A stretch of 33,378 bases of DNA, from assembly GCA_030610815.1 (NCBI GenBank), contig JAUWRA010000007.1, positions 1-33,378 on the forward strand. The letters run 5' to 3'. The stretch's first letter is position 1. Each line of letters starts with the position of its first letter. Below the pieces are notes generated by a model, which was given only the letters and a program-made list of their open reading frames with translations, had not been told where the DNA came from and made no database searches. This document shows, in pieces, positions 28 through 13,788 of this stretch. This DNA comes from Methanosarcinales archaeon (lineage in GTDB: Archaea > Halobacteriota > Methanosarcinia > Methanosarcinales > Methanocomedenaceae). A program made the position numbers and the translations under genes.

Positions 28-1191
28 ATGAACAAGCAACCTGTACTCAATATACTAAAGGATATTTTCCAGGCTTATGGATATAATATTGATTCATCAT
101 ATATTTCGGATCTGGTGGCATCTAAAGGAGTCTCAGACCACATTTACATCAAACTTGATAGTGATGTGGATTATAGCTCAATGCGCAGGTTTGCTGACTC
201 CATAAAGAACACCGAAGGTACCGGGTTATACATCCTGAATAACAGAGCACCGGGTGAAGTTGCCGGTTTTGCCTCCCAGCAGGATATTATATTCTGGGAT
301 AAGCATGATCTGGAAAGCCAGATTGGTAAGGCCATCCTGGCAAACACGGAAGGTCTTCCAATGAAACTGGATCTATCCCCGCACGATAGCCAAAGGATTG
401 CAGAAAGACCTGAGCCGACCCCGCCAGCAGGGTCCCGGGACGACAGCATCTTCGGAATGTTCGCCGAATCACCTTCATCAAAACCTGAACCTGCTCCAGT
501 TCCGATTCCTGCTCCTGAACCAGTTCATGAACCTGCTTTTAAATGGCCAGGCCTTGGCACACCTCCCGGGCAGACCTACCCGGAAAGTATAGGGGCCGGG
601 AGATTTGGTGTGAATCAGGAAGAGGAGATAGTACGAATCCCACTTCCTTCCCTGCCCATAAACATGGCAAAGACCAGCGCCATCAAGATAAGCCAGGCAA
701 AGATCGGGGAGGTCCAGGACTTACTTTTAAAATTCATACCCAATTATATTTATAAATATGAATTTGATACGAAGAGGAAGTTCAGGTCAAAGATAATTAA
801 CCTTAATGGCCAGGGTGAGGGCATGGTAAATGCCATTACAGGTGAGCACACCATCACCCGTTCCCCGGACATACTGGAATATGCTGAGATCATAACAGAG
901 AATTACCAGATAAAAGAACCAACATTAAGTGACGAGGAGGCTAAGGAAAAAGTATTGGATGCGATTATCCTGAAGCATTCTAATAAGATTAAAGTGGACG
1001 AGGTCAAAGGTGATGCCATAATTTCCGAAAGCAAGACGCTGGCACCTCTGGAAAATGAGATTGATCTTGCAATAAATATAGTATATGTTCCGGTGTGGGA
1101 AATTCAGGGAAAGCAAAATACTATTGACATAAATGCCTATGACGGGCATATTCTTGAGACTCCCGTCGACGATGATGCGGAGTTTGTTTAG
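28..1191 (+). CDS. Hypothetical protein with Pro-rich linker and PepSY-like C-terminal region
   Basis: 387-aa ORF; central PEPAPVPIPAPEPVHEPA linker; C-terminus '..INAYDGHIL' resembles PepSY-type repeats; no confident family for the N-terminus. Confidence 0.7.
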   Translation: MNKQPVLNILKDIFQAYGYNIDSSYISDLVASKGVSDHIYIKLDSDVDYSSMRRFADSIKNTEGTGLYILNNRAPGEVAGFASQQDIIFWDKHDLESQIGKAILANTEGLPMKLDLSPHDSQRIAERPEPTPPAGSRDDSIFGMFAESPSSKPEPAPVPIPAPEPVHEPAFKWPGLGTPPGQTYPESIGAGRFGVNQEEEIVRIPLPSLPINMAKTSAIKISQAKIGEVQDLLLKFIPNYIYKYEFDTKRKFRSKIINLNGQGEGMVNAITGEHTITRSPDILEYAEIITENYQIKEPTLSDEEAKEKVLDAIILKHSNKIKVDEVKGDAIISESKTLAPLENEIDLAINIVYVPVWEIQGKQNTIDINAYDGHILETPVDDDAEFV

Positions 1192-2249
1192 GTATTTGAC
1201 AGGTATATATCAAAACCCGATGATGTAAGTATCTCATTATTTGGGGTTACAAGTATACACTCTGTATTGTGTATATTCTCAATAAGTTTTAGACCTTTGT
1301 CGGGTCCCAGTACGAAAACGGTGGTGGCCAGTGTATCTGCTTCTATGGCCGAACCTGCTATTATTGTTGCACTCAAAAGACTTTCTGATGACTTTCCTGT
1401 CCTTGGGTCACTGATATGGGAGAGCCGGGCAGATTCATTGAAGTAGCGCTCATAATTTCCGCTGGTGGCCACTGCCATGTCTGATATCTCCATAACAACA
1501 ATAGACTGGCTCTTATTCTCCGGATTTCGAAGTCCCACTTTCCAGTCAGAACCGTCCGGCCTGGTGCCAAAATACATACCGTCACCTCCGGCATTTACAA
1601 AACCACTTGCATATCCGTTATTTTTTAACACTTTGACTGCCTGGTCTACAGCATACCCTTTGGCTATGCCATCCACGGTAATGGACATACCTTCTGCATT
1701 GAAGTAAATGGTTTTGTTCTCTACTGTAATATTACTATAGTTCACAAGGGTCAGGGTTTCATTGATTTCCTGCCCAGTGGGATATTCGCCTGCAATTATT
1801 TTTGTTTTCCACAGGTTAAGTATGGGCTTTATTGTGACATCAAAGGCTCCGTCACTTATATTACCATAGTATATTGACTGTTCGATTACATAAATGAGGT
1901 CATCGGATACGTTATCCACCTGCCCCTCAGCGTTCAATATACCTATTTCGCTGTTGGAATCAAAAGTGGTCATTAATTTTTCAATGCGGTCAATTTCCTT
2001 AAAAGCACTATTTATTGTGGTTTCTGCATTGGTTTTTGTGCCGATTATCTCTATAGTAACAATAGTCCCCATCAATTGCTGGCTTTCTGCAATGACATCA
2101 TTGCTGTTCACATTACTTTCTTCAATGAGATTATTGTTCCCCTCATTATCAGTACCGACCGGAAAATGGGTATAGATTGTAAACAGGGCTACTGTCATTA
2201 CTATCAGCGCAAACAAATATATGATTATCCTTTTGTGGTGGTCGTCCAT
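1188..2249 (-). CDS. apbE: FAD:protein FMN transferase (ApbE family)
   Basis: 353-aa ORF with N-terminal TM/lipoprotein-like segment; ApbE-type motifs 'MGTIVTIEI', 'DGIAKGYAVDQAVKVLKNNGYASGFVNAGGDG', 'SHISDPRTGK', 'ADTLATTVFVLG'. Confidence 0.93.
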   Translation of the reverse strand: MDDHHKRIIIYLFALIVMTVALFTIYTHFPVGTDNEGNNNLIEESNVNSNDVIAESQQLMGTIVTIEIIGTKTNAETTINSAFKEIDRIEKLMTTFDSNSEIGILNAEGQVDNVSDDLIYVIEQSIYYGNISDGAFDVTIKPILNLWKTKIIAGEYPTGQEINETLTLVNYSNITVENKTIYFNAEGMSITVDGIAKGYAVDQAVKVLKNNGYASGFVNAGGDGMYFGTRPDGSDWKVGLRNPENKSQSIVVMEISDMAVATSGNYERYFNESARLSHISDPRTGKSSESLLSATIIAGSAIEADTLATTVFVLGPDKGLKLIENIHNTECILVTPNNEILTSSGFDIYLSNT

Positions 2250-2364
2250 ATCTATTCACACATTATTGGATGTTATATCTATGTTTTGTTATTTATGGTG
2301 CAGGTAAAAAACAATTCGATAAATTTAAATAAAGCAGTGTAAACCCATATATAGGGTTCGAAAT

Positions 2365-3186
2365 ATGGTGAAATTTCAATATATATTAACATTAAATGAA
2401 TCGGTGTATGCGGAAATAGCAGCAGACAATGCTATGAAGTTGGCTAAGATGTATAATGCTGAAATTTCCATCATAAATGTAGTAGATAACAGTTTGTTCA
2501 AAGAAGAAGAAATTGGGATCCAAACTGAATTGGGCCAGACACTGGTTGATGAATACAAACAGATCTGTGAAAAAAATGGAATTAGTATAAACAATGCTAC
2601 TGTGGTAATAGGATCACCAGTATTTGAAATTATTAAGATGCAAGAGGAGATCGATGCCAGTTTAATTATTTTAGGTGCATCTAAAAACAAACTTGGGAAA
2701 ATAGCTGAGAAGCTTGTGAAAGATGTTAAGTGTCATGTGCTGATAGCCCGTAAAAATACTTTTGGTGAAGAGCTATTCAGCAATATTCTTGTTCCAGTGG
2801 ATAGTACAAAAGATGCAGAGTATGCTGGAAAATTTGCATCCAGCATTGCACATCGCTCTCATTCGAACCTGACGGCCTGTCACATTTTTCCACATAAGAT
2901 AAAAGAGGATGAGGGGAATGAAATAACTAAACTGGTATTAGATATTGCGAAATCAAAAGGAATTCAAGCGGAATCTTTAACAGGTGAAGGAAAAACAGCC
3001 GATGAGATTCTAAACATAATTTACGATAAATCCTTTAACCTGGTGGTTTTGGGATATTCAGGTCGTGGTAGAGTTTCCAGGTTTGTACATGGAAGTATCT
3101 CGGAAAAAGTTATTCATTCGGCAACGTGTTCTATTTTTGTAGTTAAAAGTATAAGACCTGAAAGAGTGTATACTGTGAAACAATAA
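2365..3186 (+). CDS. Universal stress protein, tandem UspA domains
   Basis: 273 aa; two USP domains; C-terminal domain has G-x2-G-x9-G-S motif 'GYSGRGRVSRFVHGS'. Confidence 0.9.
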   Translation: MVKFQYILTLNESVYAEIAADNAMKLAKMYNAEISIINVVDNSLFKEEEIGIQTELGQTLVDEYKQICEKNGISINNATVVIGSPVFEIIKMQEEIDASLIILGASKNKLGKIAEKLVKDVKCHVLIARKNTFGEELFSNILVPVDSTKDAEYAGKFASSIAHRSHSNLTACHIFPHKIKEDEGNEITKLVLDIAKSKGIQAESLTGEGKTADEILNIIYDKSFNLVVLGYSGRGRVSRFVHGSISEKVIHSATCSIFVVKSIRPERVYTVKQ

Positions 3187-4173: not shown

Positions 4174-4223
4174 AAATGCTCATATTTATCTGTAAATGTT
4201 CATATTCCATTTGAAATGCTCAT
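4174..4223 (+). promoter_or_regulatory. Three direct repeats AAATG(C/T)TCAT at 4174, 4194 and 4214 (20-bp period), followed by a TATA-like box at about 4234-4242
   Basis: Read directly: AAATGCTCATAT / AAATGTTCATAT / AAATGCTCATTA, then GAAAAATATAAG; upstream of the 4336 operon. Confidence 0.6.
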
Positions 4224-4335
4224 TAAAATAGAAAAATATAAGTCAAAGGGATAACTATGAAGTTTAAAATAATGGTATTATAATAATTTTTGAAGGTGAA
4301 AACGGGAACAAGCTAATATCCAAGGTGAGTACTTA

Positions 4336-4584
4336 ATGGGGTCAATAAAAAATAATATAGGATTTGTATCTTTAATTTTAACAGTCTTAATCGTGATCAG
4401 CATATTTTTATTTATTAATATAAATTCTATTTTTGAAAATATTATTGCAACTGGTTCCGGAGATATACTATGGGCAAATTATTTAATAAAGTTTTACGTG
4501 ATCTTCAGCGTAATTGGCCTTACAGCAAATCTCATATTGATGCATTATAAATTTATAAAAATGAAAGGATTCCATGAATGGTGA
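4336..4584 (+). CDS. Small membrane protein (2 predicted TM helices)
   Basis: 82 aa, hydrophobic; stop overlaps the start of the cytochrome b ORF. Confidence 0.7.
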   Translation: MGSIKNNIGFVSLILTVLIVISIFLFININSIFENIIATGSGDILWANYLIKFYVIFSVIGLTANLILMHYKFIKMKGFHEW

Positions 4585-5267
4585 TTACCTTGAATGAACA
4601 CATTGAAAGATTTTCCACAAACCAGATAATTGTTCATTTTATTTTTGCATTATCTATAATGATATTATACATGACAGGGATTCCTCGACTTTACCCTGAG
4701 CATCTGGGATGGATATTGGATCTGATAGGCCTGTCAAGGTCTTTGTTTATTCACAGACTTGCTGCAATAGTGTTAATATCAGCTTCAATTTACTATCTGA
4801 TATATTCAATATTGTACTGGAACCTAAAAAATAAAAAATATTTCAATCAAATTATTTTTCCAAATTCAAAAGATATATTTGACTTTGTGAATGATAACCT
4901 ATCAATATTAGGCCTTAAACATGTACGGATCAATTATGCTAAATATAGCTGGCTCGAAAAGGGGCTTATCTGGAGCGTCATTATTGTTGATGCTATAATT
5001 CTTGGCATTACAGGAATTGTACTGTGGGTACCATGGCTGTTTGCACCATACTTTACAATGTCACATTTTTCTACAATTAATCTCATTCATGGCAGTTTTG
5101 CCATATTGAGCCTTTGTGTAATAATACCGCATTTTTATAAAGTTCATTTAACTCCTTTCAAATTCCCAATGGATTATTCAATGTTTACAGGAGTTATTCG
5201 AAAAGAAGTGGCAGAAGAAGATTATCCATATTGGTACGAAGAAATTTCTGGTGAGAAACATGATTGA
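4578..5267 (+). CDS. b-type cytochrome membrane subunit (FdhI/VhtC/cytochrome b561-like)
   Basis: 229 aa, about 4 TM helices with conserved-looking His residues (IIVHF, FIHR, LIHG, PHFYKVH). Confidence 0.75.
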   Translation: MVITLNEHIERFSTNQIIVHFIFALSIMILYMTGIPRLYPEHLGWILDLIGLSRSLFIHRLAAIVLISASIYYLIYSILYWNLKNKKYFNQIIFPNSKDIFDFVNDNLSILGLKHVRINYAKYSWLEKGLIWSVIIVDAIILGITGIVLWVPWLFAPYFTMSHFSTINLIHGSFAILSLCVIIPHFYKVHLTPFKFPMDYSMFTGVIRKEVAEEDYPYWYEEISGEKHD

Positions 5268-5653: not shown

Positions 5654-7108
5654 TTGAAAAAAATTATCACAGTTTTATCTGTTATAATTCTGACAGGTAT
5701 AATCATAATATCCTATGGCAATCTTAATTACAATGGAAACCAAGCTCGTGCAGCACATTCTATTTGTAATAATACATGGTCAGATGAGAAATGCATAAAC
5801 TGTCATACTAATGTTTTCAATGAAGTAGTCAATTCATATCATGTACAGCAGGTCAATAGAGATGTTGTAGATGGACAATGGGATTTACTTTTCCTGAACC
5901 TTGTTGAAAAACAGGACACAACGAGACTCGTTAGAGGATGCGGTCAGTGTCATCCAAGGGGTACTCCTCCACATGATCCAACCATTGAAGCAGCAGCCGG
6001 ACAATCGGAATGCAGTCGGTGTCATTCAAAAACCGACCTGGTTTTTGAGATCCACGACACTGATGAAATTGTAGGGGGAACTATCACTACAGATTGTACG
6101 ACATGTCATGTTACTACTGAAGAATCTAATTCAGCTCATATTTCTGATGCTACATGTGCCAACAAGTGCCATCATACTGATGTTGCAAAACGGGCCGTGA
6201 TGTGGTGTAGTGATGATTATGCTACATATGATGTTCATGCCAACGCAGGTATTGGATGTCTTCAATGCCATATTACATCCGATCACCAGATCGGTAAGGG
6301 GAACATTATCGATCGTTCTGATCAAACAGTAACTATTGATCAACCTGTGAAACAGTGCATTGATTGCCATATGGAAGTTACACATGGAATGATCGTGGAT
6401 GCCCATCTTGAAAAGGTGGCATGTGAAGCTTGTCATATACCAAAACTTCCGGGTGGTCAACTACCAGGAGATACTGCTATAGATTCCATTGACTGGACAA
6501 ATGGTAACAAGGATATCGAATATAAAAATGTAGATTTCCAACCGGTTTTGGCATGGTTTAACGGTACTGTGAATGGAATTCCTCAACCTTCCGATAAAGA
6601 TGACCCTGGAGCAGTCTTAAAACCATTCAATGTTATAACTATTACCTGGTGGGATGAGGGAATTGACTTAAATGTTGTTAACAATCCCAATACAAGCTTA
6701 TACTGGGGTGACCCGATCACTCTTTCGCACATTAGATCTGCCGATATCAATGGCGATGGTGAAGTTAGCACTGAGGAGATAAGGGAATTTGACTTGAAAT
6801 TATATGGAATAACTGGTTATCCCGACACTGTCTTAAGGCAAATGGATATGCATTATTCAGTAAGTCATAATATTGTGGGAGAAGAAAGTGCGCTTGGAAA
6901 AAGTGCATTGTGGTGTGCTGATTGTCATGGTAATACATCCGGGATCGACTGGGTGTTGTTGGGATATGAGGCAGATCCGGCCCAAACCGATCCACCAACC
7001 GATTTCACTACCTACGAGGTCACTGTCGAGGTAGTACCGGCAAGGCCAAAACCGGTAGAGGTGGTAAATGAACCTTGGTTATTTGACCCATTCAAGGCTG
7101 GTGAGTAA
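5654..7108 (+). CDS. mmcA: Secreted multiheme c-type cytochrome, MmcA-like/OTR-family-like
   Basis: N-terminal signal-like segment; CINCH, CGQCH, CSRCH, CTTCH, CANKCH (CX3CH), CLQCH, CIDCH, CEACH, CADCH; immediately upstream of rnfC. Confidence 0.88.
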   Translation: MKKIITVLSVIILTGIIIISYGNLNYNGNQARAAHSICNNTWSDEKCINCHTNVFNEVVNSYHVQQVNRDVVDGQWDLLFLNLVEKQDTTRLVRGCGQCHPRGTPPHDPTIEAAAGQSECSRCHSKTDLVFEIHDTDEIVGGTITTDCTTCHVTTEESNSAHISDATCANKCHHTDVAKRAVMWCSDDYATYDVHANAGIGCLQCHITSDHQIGKGNIIDRSDQTVTIDQPVKQCIDCHMEVTHGMIVDAHLEKVACEACHIPKLPGGQLPGDTAIDSIDWTNGNKDIEYKNVDFQPVLAWFNGTVNGIPQPSDKDDPGAVLKPFNVITITWWDEGIDLNVVNNPNTSLYWGDPITLSHIRSADINGDGEVSTEEIREFDLKLYGITGYPDTVLRQMDMHYSVSHNIVGEESALGKSALWCADCHGNTSGIDWVLLGYEADPAQTDPPTDFTTYEVTVEVVPARPKPVEVVNEPWLFDPFKAGE

Positions 7109-7172
7109 CGAATTATGTATAGCAATATGTGCAACATGATTGCAAATAATGATCCTTTGTGTGAGTGATGAA

Positions 7173-8519
7173 ATGACAAAAGAAGAGATGAAAAATAATT
7201 CAAAAACACCTAAGGAAGCGGAAGAGTACCGCCAACAGGTGGTCATCCCACTATTACAGCACAGGGGCGCTATTTGTGAACCATTGGTAGATGTGGAAGA
7301 TAATGTGCTAATCGGCCAGAAGATCGGAGAATGTGATAATGATTACGCTGCACAGGTCCATTCAAGTATTTCAGGACATATAATTGCCATTGAAGAAAGG
7401 CCCCATCCAAGTTGTGTAAAAAAACCAAGCATAATTATCGAATCTAATGGGACCAATGAATCAATTAACTTTAAAACCTGCACAAATCCCTCAAAGGAAT
7501 ACATATTCGATACCTTACAAGATTCGGGTATAGTCGAACTGGACGGATACCCTGTTTTTAATACATTAATCTCTAAAAAAATAATAGACACGGTCATGGT
7601 AAATCTTACTTACCCGAGCGATGCAAATAGTAACTGTACATCTGATAATATCCCGAAAATAATTGAAGGAATGAAACTCTTGATGAAAGCATCTGATGCA
7701 GAGGGAGTAATTATAATAAACAAGACTGATGGACAGCTTGCATCATCTATCCGCTCGAGTTTAAATGGAGACAATATTAAAATCATCAATACCAAACGAA
7801 ATTATATTCCATTAATGAATAACCTTCTTGCCCATGATATGACGGGCATAAGGATATCAAATAGGGATACACCGGGATATGCGGGAGTGATGATATCCAG
7901 TGCTTATGGAGCACTGGCAGTCAGTAAAGCAGTACTGGAAGGAATTCCTCCAATAGAGGTCAATGTCACAGTATCCGGGGCAGTGAAAAACCCCATGATC
8001 AATACAGTAAGTATTGGAACAAGTTTCAAGGATGTGATACAGTCCAGCGGCGGATATTTGGGTGAGCCTGGTAAGATCATCATGAACGGGATACTTTCAG
8101 GTACGGCCCAGGCAACCGATGAGGTCCCTGTTATTAAATCTACAACTGAGATCACAGTTCAGTCCATTGACGAAGTTGTGCGGGACAAACCTGGTCCTTG
8201 CATCCACTGCGCACGATGCGTGGATGTGTGTCCTGTAAATATTCTACCGGGCCGAATAGCTTCCTTTTCAGATATAGGTAGATACGACGAATGTAGTAAA
8301 CTTCATGTTAATAGTTGCGTTGAATGCGGTCTATGTGATTATGTCTGCCCTTCCAGCAGACATATTCTGCAGTTAATTAGGTTCGCCAGGACCGCACTTA
8401 TAAGATTATTTAATATTCCTGAAGAGAAGGAGTCTCCCAACCTGAAACTGGGCTGTGAATCATGTGAAACCCCTTGCGATACAGGTACATCATCAGTTAC
8501 AGAAGGAGGTAAAAAATGA
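7173..8519 (+). CDS. rnfC: Rnf electron transport complex subunit C
   Basis: 459-aa ORF (open from 7140; ATG 7173 likely); 'RQQVVIPLLQHRGAICEPLVDVEDNVLIGQKIGE', two 4Fe-4S motifs CIHCARCVDVCP and CVECGLCDYVCP. Confidence 0.92.
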   Translation: MTKEEMKNNSKTPKEAEEYRQQVVIPLLQHRGAICEPLVDVEDNVLIGQKIGECDNDYAAQVHSSISGHIIAIEERPHPSCVKKPSIIIESNGTNESINFKTCTNPSKEYIFDTLQDSGIVELDGYPVFNTLISKKIIDTVMVNLTYPSDANSNCTSDNIPKIIEGMKLLMKASDAEGVIIINKTDGQLASSIRSSLNGDNIKIINTKRNYIPLMNNLLAHDMTGIRISNRDTPGYAGVMISSAYGALAVSKAVLEGIPPIEVNVTVSGAVKNPMINTVSIGTSFKDVIQSSGGYLGEPGKIIMNGILSGTAQATDEVPVIKSTTEITVQSIDEVVRDKPGPCIHCARCVDVCPVNILPGRIASFSDIGRYDECSKLHVNSCVECGLCDYVCPSSRHILQLIRFARTALIRLFNIPEEKESPNLKLGCESCETPCDTGTSSVTEGGKK

Positions 8520-9406
8520 AACTGTCTGTTTCGCATCCACCCCACATAAAACAGGGAGTAACTGTCAAGACCATAATGTGGAGCAAAATAGCGATACTGA
8601 TGGCTGTCAGCCTGATGGCAGTTTTTGTGTTCGGTTTGTCAGCTCTGGCAATGATATTGGTAAGTACCATATCTGCGGTAATCACTGAAGCAGGCATCCA
8701 GAAATTGACAAAGCAGGAATTGACAATAAAAGATGGAGATGCTGTTTCAATAGGCATGCTAATTGCACTGCTGTTGCCCCATACGGTTCCGATATGGGTT
8801 CCGGCAATTGGAGCATTTTTTGGTGTTGCCCTGGTAAAACATGCTTTTGGCGGTCTTGGATCTACATTATTTAATCCAGCGATAGCTGCCTGGGTATTTA
8901 TGAACATGTCGTGGGGAGCGTTAACAAAAATAAGTTCAGTATCGCATATCGGCTCAGCATCATATAATATACTGTTTTTAGGCAAGTATTCAGACGTTAT
9001 ATTTGAATCTGGAGCAGGGACGCTGGCAGAAGTATCATCTTTCATTTTGGTTATTGGCGGTGTATACCTCATATATAAGAAATATATCGACTGGCGTATC
9101 CCATCCAGTTTTATTGTCACTACGGTTGTGATGGCTTTATTGCTTGGAGAGGACCTGTCATATGTGATAACTGGAATGCTTTTCCTTGGAGTGTTCATAC
9201 TTGCCACCGAAACTGCCACATCTCCAATCACGAAAAACGGTAGATTCATTTATGGTTTATTGTGCGGCGTACTGACTGTAATGTATGGATTTATTAGTTG
9301 CAATTATGTGGTGGCTGTCCTGTATGCCGTATTCTTCGCCAATGCCGTTGCGCCATTTATTGAAAAGAATACATCCCCTAAGCCTGTTGATGAGGTGGCA
9401 TTGTGA
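8516..9406 (+). CDS. rnfD: Rnf complex subunit D
   Basis: 296-aa polytopic; 'FNPAIAAWVFMNMSW', 'LATETATSPITKNGRFIYG'; position in rnf operon. Confidence 0.92.
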   Translation: MKLSVSHPPHIKQGVTVKTIMWSKIAILMAVSLMAVFVFGLSALAMILVSTISAVITEAGIQKLTKQELTIKDGDAVSIGMLIALLLPHTVPIWVPAIGAFFGVALVKHAFGGLGSTLFNPAIAAWVFMNMSWGALTKISSVSHIGSASYNILFLGKYSDVIFESGAGTLAEVSSFILVIGGVYLIYKKYIDWRIPSSFIVTTVVMALLLGEDLSYVITGMLFLGVFILATETATSPITKNGRFIYGLLCGVLTVMYGFISCNYVVAVLYAVFFANAVAPFIEKNTSPKPVDEVAL

Positions 9407-9942
9407 AAATGGATAAGGAAATGGGTGTGGTGCTGTTAAAACTGGTGGTATTGTCAGTAGTTGCCGCAGCAGTTCTCGGTGCCGTCTATATTCCCACACA
9501 AGTGCAGTTAAAGATATATCAACAAGAGCAAAAAGAACTGGCCCTCGTAGATGTAATGCCTTTAGCAGACCATTTTGATCCTGTGAGATCCGGAGAGGAA
9601 ATATTATATTACAGAGCTCTCGATGCTGATAACAATCTGGTGGGATATAGTTTTTTCCATGACCAGAGCGGCTCGCAGGATATGATCACTATTGCAGGCG
9701 GCATTGATACTGAATACAAAGTGAGTGGAATAAAAATCATGTCACATGCTGAAACTCCGGGTCTGGGTGCAAAGATAACTGAACTCGCATTCACAGACCA
9801 GTTCATAGGAGTAGCCCAATCTGATCTAATGCTTTCCAAGAACGATGGTGCAATAGATGCAATTACAGGTGCCACTGTTTCTTCCGTGGCTGTGATAGAT
9901 GGAATACAGGCAAAAATTTTGGAAATTAAAGCAAATGAATGA
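9403..9942 (+). CDS. rnfG: Rnf complex subunit G (FMN-binding)
   Basis: 179 aa; 'HAETPGLGAKI' and flavinylation motif 'DAITGATVSS'. Confidence 0.93.
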   Translation: MKMDKEMGVVLLKLVVLSVVAAAVLGAVYIPTQVQLKIYQQEQKELALVDVMPLADHFDPVRSGEEILYYRALDADNNLVGYSFFHDQSGSQDMITIAGGIDTEYKVSGIKIMSHAETPGLGAKITELAFTDQFIGVAQSDLMLSKNDGAIDAITGATVSSVAVIDGIQAKILEIKANE

Positions 9943-9961
9943 ACTATAGATGGGACTTATC

Positions 9962-10591
9962 ATGGCAGAAAAGACAATTTTGGGTGAATATCTTAGAGGA
10001 ATAGTAAAGGATAATCCTGTGCTTGCTCTTGTACTGGGATTATGTCCTGCTCTTGCGGTCACAACATCTGTAGAGAACGCTATAGGTATGTCAGGTGCGG
10101 CTTTATTTGTACTGTTAGGGTCAAACGTAATGATATCTGCGCTAAGAAAACAAATACCTCCAATAATCCGCATACCGATGTTTATTATAATAATATGTAC
10201 TTTTGTTACTATCATCGATATGGTGATGGAAGCCTATACACCTCCGCTGTATAAGGCACTGGGAATATTCATACCCTTGATAGTGGTCAACTGTATTATT
10301 ATAGGTCGTGCCGAAGCCTATGCAATCAAGAACAATGTAAAATACTCCATTGTCGATGCATTTGGGATTGGGACCGGTTTTTTAGTCGTTCTGGTGGCGA
10401 TCGGAGCCATAAGGGAATTATTAGGTACAGGGGCCATTGTGTTATTTGGATTTAAATTGATCAGTATACCAATATATTCAGATACTCCGGCTACATTCAT
10501 GATATTGCCTGCCGGAGCATTCATGACCATCGGTGTCTTGATGGCATTAGTTAATTACAACCGTATCAGAAAACTGAAAAAGGGGGCATAG
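9962..10591 (+). CDS. rnfE: Rnf complex subunit E
   Basis: ORF open from 9950; 'NPVLALVLGLCPALAVTTSVENAIGMSGAALFV'; start at 9962 (MAEKTILGEY) likely. Confidence 0.93.
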   Translation: MAEKTILGEYLRGIVKDNPVLALVLGLCPALAVTTSVENAIGMSGAALFVLLGSNVMISALRKQIPPIIRIPMFIIIICTFVTIIDMVMEAYTPPLYKALGIFIPLIVVNCIIIGRAEAYAIKNNVKYSIVDAFGIGTGFLVVLVAIGAIRELLGTGAIVLFGFKLISIPIYSDTPATFMILPAGAFMTIGVLMALVNYNRIRKLKKGA

Positions 10592-10594
10592 TAA

Positions 10595-11182
10595 ATGGAG
10601 GATGTCAGCTTATTTGCCATAGCAATAAACGGTATTTTTGTTAAGAACTTCTTGCTTGTCCAGTTCCTGGGATTGTGCTCATTCCTGGGTGTGTCAAAGG
10701 AGACAAAAAGTGCAGTAGGCATGTCGGCTGCCGTGATGTTTGTGATGATATTGGCTTCAACGGCTGCATTTTTAATATATGAGTTTCTTCTGAAACCTTT
10801 TGGGCTTACGTTTTTGACAACCATCAGTTTTATCATCATAATCGCCGCCCTTGTACAGCTGGTGGAATTCATTATTCGTAAATTCAGTCCTCCCCTGTAC
10901 AGGTCGCTGGGGATATTCCTGCCCCTGATAACCACCAACTGCGCCATACTTGGTGTAGTGATACTTAATGTAAGGCTTGAATACGGCTTTATTGAGAGTG
11001 TTTTCTACGGTTTTACAGCCGGTGTAGGTTATACTATGGTCATGCTGCTTATGTCTTCGATCCGAGAAAAGTGCACTGTGCTCAGGATACCCGAAGCTGT
11101 CCAGGGTATCCCACATGCTTTCTTTATTACCACATTGCTTTCAATGGCTTTTGTTAACTTCTTCGGAGTGATCCCAACATGA
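10595..11182 (+). CDS. rnfA: Rnf complex subunit A
   Basis: 195 aa; 'INGIFVKNFLLVQFLGLCSFLGVSKETKSAVGMSAAVMFVM'. Confidence 0.94.
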   Translation: MEDVSLFAIAINGIFVKNFLLVQFLGLCSFLGVSKETKSAVGMSAAVMFVMILASTAAFLIYEFLLKPFGLTFLTTISFIIIIAALVQLVEFIIRKFSPPLYRSLGIFLPLITTNCAILGVVILNVRLEYGFIESVFYGFTAGVGYTMVMLLMSSIREKCTVLRIPEAVQGIPHAFFITTLLSMAFVNFFGVIPT

Positions 11183-12000
11183 CCGGTACGTTACTGATCG
11201 CCCAATCAGCAATGGTGATCGGAGGTATAGGATTTTTGGTAGGTATCGTACTTATATGGGCATCAATAAAATTTGCAGTAGAGACAAATCCACTTGTGGA
11301 TGAAGTCATTGAAGTATTGCCAGGTGCCAATTGCGGTGCCTGCGGATATGCGGGGTGTGCTGATTTCGCTGAAAAAGTTGTTGAAGAAACAGCACCAATT
11401 GATGGATGTCCTGTGGGTGGTTTTGATGTTGTAAAAGAGATCGGCGCGAAGTTGGGTCAGGAAGTTAAAGAAGCAGAAAGCATATATCCATTTGTCAGGT
11501 GCAACGGTGGTGTGCACTGTACAGATAAGATCGATTATGTGGGCATCGATGACTGCAGGGCTGTCATGATGATATCAGACGGTGAAAAAGGATGTAGCTA
11601 TGGATGTGTAGGGAGGGGAACCTGTGTGCGTGCGTGTCCGTTTGGTGCAATTACCATTGGTGATGACCGCCTTCCACATATTAATAAGAATATGTGTAAA
11701 AGCTGCGGTATATGTGTTGATGAATGTCCCAACGACATATTGGTTATGGCAAACGAGACTGAAACAGTGCATGTGCTGTGCCGGTCGAATGATAAAGGAA
11801 AGCTTGTAAAATCAGTATGTGAATTCGGATGTATCGGATGCCGCATATGTGCCAAGAACTGTCCGGAAGATGCAATTACTGTAACCGGGTTTTTAGCAGA
11901 GATCGATCAGGAGAAATGTACAAACTGCGGTCTATGTGTGGATAATTGTCCGCAAAAAACAATTGAAATGATCTCTACATCTGTTGAAGCCGCAGCCTGA
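11179..12000 (+). CDS. rnfB: Rnf complex subunit B (iron-sulfur)
   Basis: 273 aa; 'PGANCGACGYAGCADFAEKV' plus several 4Fe-4S motifs. Confidence 0.94.
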   Translation: MTGTLLIAQSAMVIGGIGFLVGIVLIWASIKFAVETNPLVDEVIEVLPGANCGACGYAGCADFAEKVVEETAPIDGCPVGGFDVVKEIGAKLGQEVKEAESIYPFVRCNGGVHCTDKIDYVGIDDCRAVMMISDGEKGCSYGCVGRGTCVRACPFGAITIGDDRLPHINKNMCKSCGICVDECPNDILVMANETETVHVLCRSNDKGKLVKSVCEFGCIGCRICAKNCPEDAITVTGFLAEIDQEKCTNCGLCVDNCPQKTIEMISTSVEAAA

Positions 12001-12003
12001 TGA

Positions 12004-13470
12004 TTACTGTGTATAAATATAGACATCACAGTATTCATCACCATGGCTGAGTAATTTAATTGCATCTACGTCTGCTAAATCACCAAATGCGTATTCAATT
12101 GCACCTTTGAATATTTCCCTGTGCATATGACATTTATTTGGATCATTTGCATATGCGCATTCATGGACTGTGTACCTTAAAGAATTTGGCCGCAATTCCC
12201 AATTTGACTTTATCTGTCTATCAGCCGGCTCGATTGCTTTTTTGAAAGTTTGGATATCCCAGTATTTTGATCCATATTTTTGTTCATACTGAATCATAAG
12301 CATCCTGCCCAGTCCCCGTCCGAAACTCTTTATCTGTTCAATGAAATCAATATCCTTAACGGTTCTTAGAAAATCTACAAATTCTGATATTATTTTTTGC
12401 ACAACTTCCCCATTTTCAGATAATTTCCTGAATAGTTCCTGTGTTTTATCTTCAATTTCAGGATGATGTCTCAAATAAATAAATGTACTTGTAATTTCCG
12501 CATCATAGTTATGACCACTACCTTCCAGTATATTGATGAAAACATTTTTAATATTTTCAACAGCTTTCATATTCCTGAAGCCATGCCTGATCTTGAGATT
12601 TTCTCCTTCTACATATACCTTGTTTACCACTCGTGAGGTTTCGGAAGTAATCTTTATTGTATGGAGAAAACGGGATAAGGGCATATCTTCTAAAGGCTGG
12701 CTGGTTGCACTTTCTATAGTAAATAACGCTCTTGGTATCTTGCCGGACATAAGGTCTTCATAAAAATTTTTTTGAATGGAAACTAGATTATAGTTAGTAG
12801 CACTGTGCTCCCCGATAAGCCGATTCCAAAAATTAGGATGAGATTTTAATTCCTTTTCGATATGTACCATATATCCCAGATTATCAATTAGATCCTGACG
12901 GGCCTCATCAGTTGATGATTTTAATTTTAATTCAATTTCAAGTTCACCTAACTGGGGATGAACTGAAACAATACCCAGTTTTTTATAAATAGCTAAAAAT
13001 TCACCAAGCATTCTTGCCAGGTGATATATATTTTCTTTATGTGTACCTGTGAATGTCACAGTGGCATTGGTGGGATTATCGTCATTATCACAGTCGATCA
13101 TAACCTCAACATGCCATCCAAAATCCCGGCACATATTATTAATAAAATCTTCAAGTTCAGTGATAGAAGTGATACTAAAAGGATCAATTATGTAGTCAAG
13201 TATCTGTTTATCAATAATTAATCCCCGTGTTTTTTTTAAAAGCCACTGGAATAAAGGCACCTGGATAATAACCTGGTCTTCCTGTATCTCCTTTAAAGTA
13301 GTGATTAATGATTTCGCATCTTCAACAGTAGGATAATATTGAAGAGCAATACTTGTCAATTCTATAGCATCCCGAATTGCAGCACTTAAATTACCGTTGT
13401 GCTTGTCGATCAAGGACTGTATTTTTTTTACATTTTCGTCCTCAAGTGCGATGTGTTTCCTTTGTACCAT
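12004..13470 (-). CDS. Putative transcriptional regulator: ribbon-helix-helix-like N-terminus, V4R-like Cys-containing C-terminus
   Basis: 488 aa; N-term 'KHIALEDENVKKIQSLIDKHNGNLSAAIRDAIELT'; C-term 'CAYANDPNKCHMHREIFKGAIEYAFGDLADVDAIKLLSHGDEYCDVYIYTQ'. Confidence 0.6.
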   Translation of the reverse strand: MVQRKHIALEDENVKKIQSLIDKHNGNLSAAIRDAIELTSIALQYYPTVEDAKSLITTLKEIQEDQVIIQVPLFQWLLKKTRGLIIDKQILDYIIDPFSITSITELEDFINNMCRDFGWHVEVMIDCDNDDNPTNATVTFTGTHKENIYHLARMLGEFLAIYKKLGIVSVHPQLGELEIELKLKSSTDEARQDLIDNLGYMVHIEKELKSHPNFWNRLIGEHSATNYNLVSIQKNFYEDLMSGKIPRALFTIESATSQPLEDMPLSRFLHTIKITSETSRVVNKVYVEGENLKIRHGFRNMKAVENIKNVFINILEGSGHNYDAEITSTFIYLRHHPEIEDKTQELFRKLSENGEVVQKIISEFVDFLRTVKDIDFIEQIKSFGRGLGRMLMIQYEQKYGSKYWDIQTFKKAIEPADRQIKSNWELRPNSLRYTVHECAYANDPNKCHMHREIFKGAIEYAFGDLADVDAIKLLSHGDEYCDVYIYTQ

Positions 13471-13547: not shown

Positions 13548-13620
13548 CTTATATATCTATTTGTTGAACAATGATGAACTAATTATTTATTTGAATGAAC
13601 ATTATATGAAATATATGAAC
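13548..13620 (-). promoter_or_regulatory. Minus-strand promoter region: TATA-like ATATATAAG (13548-13556) preceded by phased GTTCA(T) motifs
   Basis: TGAAC on + strand at 13565, 13575, 13596 and 13616; on the minus strand AATTGTTCATAT and TAATGTTCATTC are 20 bp apart. Confidence 0.55.
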
Positions 13621-13788
13621 AATTATGATTAATGATGATGAATAGTATGTGTTTTTCCCCTTTATAGCTTTATTGTCGTTCTCATTGTGCTAATTTGGAA
13701 AAATTATGATGCTCACATATATACGATGGCCATTACAAAATGAAAATTAGACGTGAAAAACCTTAATGGTTCAAGGAGGAAGAATATC

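Follow-up and report, generated by a model that had tools for sequence, protein, structure and literature searches.

A helically phased tandem-site array shared by the Rnf/cytochrome b promoter and the promoter of an adjacent candidate regulator gene in ANME-2a/b archaea

The Rnf locus and its promoter array

We analyzed a stretch of 33,378 nucleotides (hereafter, the window) from a member of the ANME-2a/b family (Ca. Methanocomedenaceae), which encompasses a cytochrome b/Rnf operon on the forward strand and, on the reverse strand, the gene of a probable cognate regulator (12004..13470, -), which in Methanocomedenaceae is convergent with the RnfB gene. In the operon, the genes for cytochrome b and for an MmcA-like multiheme cytochrome are separated by a small ORF; an 82-aa ORF lies ahead of them, and the Rnf genes lie behind. 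The 82-aa ORF (4336..4584, +) encodes a small membrane protein and is probably the first gene of the operon, with a similar ORF starting at the same place in relatives. It is followed by the cytochrome b561-type subunit of the Rnf cluster (4578..5267, +; Pfam Ni_hydr_CYTB, 5e-10) and by the MmcA-like multiheme cytochrome c and the Rnf genes up to RnfB (5654..12000, +), a region with profile matches to methano7heme (2e-116), rnfC_Methano (1e-117) and rnfB_Methano (4e-136). Rnf clusters with cytochrome b are known from ANME-2a, -2b and -3 (PMC9012536); the main text of that study does not contain the word "regulator". An initial annotation of this DNA had described a repeat array in front of the cytochrome b/Rnf operon; the placement of the array holds, with the correction that the operon probably begins with the 82-aa ORF, ahead of cytochrome b. 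Upstream of the operon, ApbE and the first universal stress protein (window 1188-3186) are 87-92% identical to their counterparts in two relatives (G003 and G004), whereas the adjoining second stress protein, the Rnf genes and the regulator are just ~60-80% identical, an identity mosaic that suggests recombination.

The array itself consists of three copies of the word AAATGYTCAT, namely S1 (4174..4183, +; AAATGCTCAT), S2 (4194..4203, +; AAATGTTCAT) and S3 (4214..4223, +; AAATGCTCAT), which start 62, 42 and 22 bp 5' of the ATATAAG motif, S3 adjoining the BRE region on its upstream side. The TATA-like box of the operon lies at 4234..4242 (+; AAATATAAG). As originally described, the copies begin at 4174, 4194 and 4214, that is, at steps of exactly 20 bp, and the last one closely precedes the TATA-like box: when extended to a 12-mer, S3 ends at 4225, 8 bp 5' of AAATATAAG. 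Across the Rnf promoters compared, the proximal site ends 12-14 bp 5' of ATATAAG and does not overlap it.

To assess the regularity of the array, we shuffled the 192-bp intergenic region (74% AT) 3000 times with its dinucleotides preserved and scored, in each case, the top set of three 10-mers placed at equal intervals of 10-30 bp (maximum score, 30). The observed trio scored 28/30, compared to 26 for the best shuffle, and none of the 3000 shuffles reached 28. By comparison, single matches to AAATGYTCAT with at most one mismatch were just mildly enriched in the window (17, against 9.9 +/- 3.3 expected), so that the signal resides in the arrangement of the sites. Judging from these sequence statistics, the repeat trio is a real cis-element. 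A single perfect AATTGTTCAT also occurs at 4628-4637, within the start of the cytochrome b gene, with no good partner at 20 bp.

Recurrence, conservation and loss of the tandem sites

A second tandem array, overlooked in the initial annotation, is present in the promoter of the 12004-13470(-) gene itself, with the same word and the same 20-bp step. Here, a first strong site (13615..13624, -; AATTGTTCAT) is followed exactly 20 bp further by a second site (13595..13604, -; TAATGTTCAT) and, after another 21 bp, by a third, weaker one (13574..13583, -; ATTAGTTCAT), which starts 29 bp 5' of the TATA-like box of the gene (ATATAAG, 13548..13554, -). Scanning the whole genome (~2.37 Mb) with the fixed pattern AWTGYTCAT-N11-AWTGYTCAT yielded exact pairs only in the Rnf promoter (two, overlapping) and in the regulator promoter (one), and not at random or within coding sequence, so that the first of two sequence-level tests that could have refuted the initial annotation was passed. 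All remaining matches carried two mismatches each. At this tolerance, there were 11 forward matches, four of which were the two arrays, compared to 2 for a reversed control pattern; viewed collectively, the two-mismatch matches were either at about the level of the reversed control or represented recurrent conserved, probably coding, sequence. We therefore rejected a global regulon, given that the tandem pattern had no exact match elsewhere in the genome.

A complementary scan of the window employed a 10-bp position weight matrix (PWM) trained on the Rnf promoters of relatives, with the window genome (G000) and its nearest relative (G005) left out. The top-scoring 20-bp pairs were those at 4194 (27.1), 4174 (27.1) and 13615(-) (21.5), followed by 13635(-) (13.5), which also lies in the regulator promoter, with the window background at or below 9.7. 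Because the matrix was derived from Rnf promoters and ranked 13615(-) high, the promoter of the regulator gene can be predicted from that of Rnf. In three relatives, the promoter of the regulator gene scored 27.1 (G005), 24.7 (G004) and 20.2 (G003); in G008 and G010, the regulator gene is intact but the sites in its promoter are degenerate or inverted, with no high PWM score. G005 (S7142MS1) belongs to the same genus as the window genome, and its regulator is 96% identical; S7142MS1 has been assigned to ANME-2a, Ca. Methanocomedens, and HR1 (G008) to ANME-2b, Ca. Methanomarinus (PMC9012536).

Footprinting of the Rnf promoters of seven relatives (G003, G004, G007, G008, G009, G010 and G013), registered on the TATA element, identified 2-4 sites in each, so that the initial annotation also passed the second of these tests, conservation of the motif in front of orthologous clusters. 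Both proximal sites are 20 bp apart in all seven, and the distance from the start of the proximal site to the TATA element is 23-24 bp in the relatives and 22 bp in the window, such that the relatives' promoters, like that of the window, carry helically phased repeats directly upstream of BRE/TATA. The distal part of the array is more variable: there are three sites in G007, a third at a 19-bp interval in G008, and four, exactly 20 bp apart, in G009, so that a counterpart of S1 is present in G007, G009 and, with a 1-bp shift, G008, and absent from G003, G004 and G013. Mean pairwise identity across five clades was 0.88 for S2, 0.80 for S3 and 0.45 for S1, with the spacers and upstream blocks (0.28-0.44) below S2 and S3, and the mean autocorrelation peaked at 20 bp (0.46 vs ~0.3 elsewhere), with a smaller rise at 10 bp. 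The ATATAAG motif is kept in 8 of the 9 other aligned promoters, including those of the operator-less G006 and G014, and reads ATATAAA in G008. Weaker similarity at the 10-bp half-step between the main sites, such as AATTAATCAC, was seen in the Rnf promoters of G003 (L047), G004 (L046), G008 (L044) and G010 (L043); this half-step repeat may be an extra low-affinity site. Outside the family, no tandem sites were detected at the promoters of the ANME-3 and ANME-2c Rnf loci, nor was a regulator found near the ANME-3 cytochrome b-Rnf clusters.

The distribution of the sites largely follows that of the regulator gene. Close orthologues of the regulator are encoded in 8 of the 17 Methanocomedenaceae genomes analyzed. 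In seven of these, the Rnf promoter can be read (the contig of G005 ends inside cytochrome b), and it carries the sites in all 7 cases, each alongside an intact regulator gene. Conversely, three genomes that carry the cluster without a close regulator orthologue (G006, G012 and G014) have no tandem sites, although the TATA-like element remains. In G014, a decayed 21-codon remnant of the regulator C-terminus adjoins rnfB (L087, 12813-12876). G009 likewise carries a decayed C-terminal remnant of 36 codons next to rnfB (L084, 3948-4055), yet has the best-kept array, with four sites. The simplest reading of these sequences is parallel decay of the gene and the operator, with G009 at an earlier stage; in G009, the gene may have been lost recently, its assembly may lack a copy, or the sites may be used by another protein. 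All counts of regulator absence come from MAG assemblies, in which contigs may be missing, and, the lineages being few and related, we claim no p-value for the association between sites and regulator. A 249-aa ORF beside the G009 remnant matched nothing in Pfam, and no terminal inverted repeats of a convincing kind were found around it, so we do not propose an insertion-element origin. The initial annotation had singled out the 12004-13470 product as the predicted binder, a choice reinforced by two observations: its gene has matching sites in the promoter, and in relatives the gene and the sites have been lost together.

The candidate regulator and its homologues

The 12004-13470(-) product comprises an RHH-like N-terminus, a central region and a V4R/H-NOX/TRAPPC3-like C-terminal domain. 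A profile of 34 homologues searched against the PDB matched the RHH head of NikR (1q5v) over residues 3-51, weakly (E 0.56), and TRAPPC3 over residues 327-406 (E 0.0039). In Pfam, RHH_1 was recognized in 5 of the 34 members (best 0.011), with the window protein below the curated cut-off, and V4R in 8 of the 34 (best 0.0013), both assignments being weak by sequence. The AlphaFold2 model of the regulator (mean pLDDT 77, pTM 0.46) contains helices at residues 10-22 and 27-44, with residues 1-5 at low confidence and no strand assigned there, and a Foldseek search of this model against the PDB returned TRAPPC3 (E 3.6e-4), H-NOX (E 1.2e-3) and the PoxR sensor (0.02). Foldseek, the profile and Pfam thus all place the C-terminal domain in the V4R/TRAPP/H-NOX fold, rather than with the C-terminal nickel-binding domain of NikR; the HTH and RAM domains of Lrp/AsnC were absent from Pfam and NCBIfam scans. 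The N-terminal region of the homologues contains a conserved NxSAAxR motif, and the predicted recognition strand, RKHIA, is common to the ANME-2c homologue, with RKNIA or RRNIT in the paralogues. Three C-terminal cysteines (C437, C446 and C480, in the numbering of the homologue comparison) are invariant, which suggests a metal or redox site. Altogether, the protein looks like an RHH head fused to a V4R/H-NOX-like sensor domain.

Homologues of the regulator occur in other neighborhoods. In Methanoperedens (L132, 4437-14187; L144, 9956-13136), they adjoin genes for multiheme cytochrome c and cytochrome b561, in L132 along with FeS and NrfD genes, with several regulator copies in a row. The homologue of ANME-2c and a relative (L099, L107, L048-L053) is 42-43% identical and adjoins stress-protein genes, not Rnf; where its flanks were read, they contain apparent Mrp-type antiporter genes. 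The ANME-2c copies have a strongly conserved upstream block in common, the sequence of which is different. A family-wide operator was rejected, as no comparable array is present upstream of the homologue genes in ANME-2c, Methanoperedens and Argoarchaeum.

Proposed mechanism, alternatives and relation to known systems

We estimate a probability of roughly 0.8 that the repeats are the dedicated operator of an autoregulated 12004-13470(-) regulator. They are candidate docking sites for this protein because they also precede its own gene, are kept across genera and are mostly gone where the regulator is lost. Each unit of ~10 bp, with the consensus AAWTGYTCAT and the pseudo-palindrome ATG-NN-CAT, would be the site of one RHH dimer, and, since the sites are two helical turns apart, successive dimers would line up on one face of the DNA, making cooperative assembly possible. 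The regulator would thus assemble immediately in front of the BRE/TATA that serves the small-ORF/cytochrome b/MmcA/Rnf operon, and would bind the matching sites in its own promoter, resulting in autoregulation. The signal, which may be a metal, heme or redox state, or a small hydrophobic ligand, is probably carried by the V4R/H-NOX-like C-terminal domain. Several observations speak against this reading, namely, the weakness of the RHH and V4R assignments by sequence, the four sites that accompany a mere remnant in G009, the poor regulator-promoter sites in G008 and G010, the lack of an own-promoter array for the ANME-2c and Methanoperedens homologues, and the small number of independent lineages.

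If the rest of this scheme holds, activation by recruitment of TBP/TFB seems somewhat likelier than repression, because the proximal site lies upstream of BRE/TATA without overlapping it. In archaea, the binding sites of activators, which recruit TBP or TFB, are typically located 5' of the BRE, and those of repressors in the promoter or downstream of it (PMC5512572); archaeal Lrp-type activation commonly involves a dimer site immediately 5' of the BRE (PMC2995911). The Rnf array shares this geometry, which favors activation and leaves repression as the main rival.

Under repression, the same operator and regulator would operate with the opposite sign, the array blocking TBP/TFB or polymerase until ligand release, an alternative that we regard as possible, if clearly less probable. 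Many RHH regulators repress and autoregulate, and in the regulator's own promoter ATTAGTTCAT is close to the TATA element, starting 29 bp before it; nevertheless, the gap of 12-14 bp between the proximal Rnf site and ATATAAG, and the position upstream of the BRE that is typical of archaeal activators (PMC5512572, PMC2995911), both argue the other way. It is unlikely that the sites serve another binder, such as a global regulator or a paralogue (~29-34% identical), with the neighboring regulator gene being incidental. The four sites of G009, which has only a regulator remnant and still encodes two paralogues, would fit such a binder, but a global regulator would not be expected to have its exact tandem pairs at the Rnf and regulator promoters only, and paralogues, which differ in the recognition strand (RKNIA or RRNIT vs RKHIA), are also present in G006, G012 and G014, where the sites are not. 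The AT-richness of the region might be taken to indicate that the repeats reflect chance or low complexity, or that they are a structural element of the DNA to which no dedicated protein binds; given the shuffle result, the conservation of the sites over their spacers, the independent recurrence at the regulator promoter and the absence of the sites where the regulator was lost, we consider this highly improbable, and the shuffles and footprinting led us to reject chance and low complexity.

In the open-access literature on Rnf or ANME regulators that we searched, nothing describes this regulator or operator, and little was found on transcriptional control in ANME-2a/2b, for which, to our knowledge, there are no pure cultures. 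The proposed regulon, with two promoters, a defined operator and a candidate regulator encoded next to it, would offer a specific, testable handle on how these archaea set their Rnf and cytochrome levels. The Rnf/cytochrome module has a proposed role in energy conservation and extracellular electron transfer (PMC9012536). Given that the combination of RHH and V4R/H-NOX-like domains recurs beside cytochrome genes in Methanoperedens, the present case may open up a wider regulator family. We tentatively suggest, as a possibility with the odds against it, that an RHH and V4R/H-NOX-like sensor-regulator sets Rnf/cytochrome expression in ANME-2a/2b in response to a redox, heme-gas or methanophenazine-like ligand via an operator phased at two helical turns, and that it is one member of a larger family, as yet undescribed, by which anaerobic methanotrophs such as Methanoperedens control their cytochrome clusters.

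Several known systems share individual features with the one described here. The gene cluster is the same as in the Rnf-cytochrome b clusters already described for ANME-2a, 2b and 3 (PMC9012536). Archaeal Lrp-type activators (Ptr2, LysM and Ss-LrpB) resemble the Rnf array in that one dimer site adjoins the BRE on its 5' side and others follow further 5', their centres two or three helical turns apart along one face of the DNA, and autoregulation, as proposed for the Rnf regulator, has been described in this group (PMC2995911). However, Lrp-type proteins have an HTH-RAM architecture, whereas the Rnf regulator is RHH-like and V4R/H-NOX-like, with no Lrp homology in the searches run. EarA of Methanococcus maripaludis recognizes four sites of 6 bp each in front of the fla BRE and, as in the Rnf array, several short sites lie directly upstream of an A-rich, weak BRE to control one large operon (PMC5512572). 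Nevertheless, the protein, the target and the site length all differ. NikR, which gave the best PDB match to the N-terminus (1q5v, E 0.56), combines an RHH head with a separate ligand domain, as we propose for the regulator. It uses one inverted pair of half-sites, in contrast to the 2-4 direct repeats observed here, and the sensor domain of the present regulator is V4R/H-NOX-like, not the nickel domain of NikR. Finally, V4R/H-NOX/TRAPPC3 sensors such as PoxR have a fold like that of the regulator C-terminus, based on the comparison of the AlphaFold2 model with the PDB; here, a sensor domain of this type appears to be joined to an RHH-like head in an archaeal regulator.
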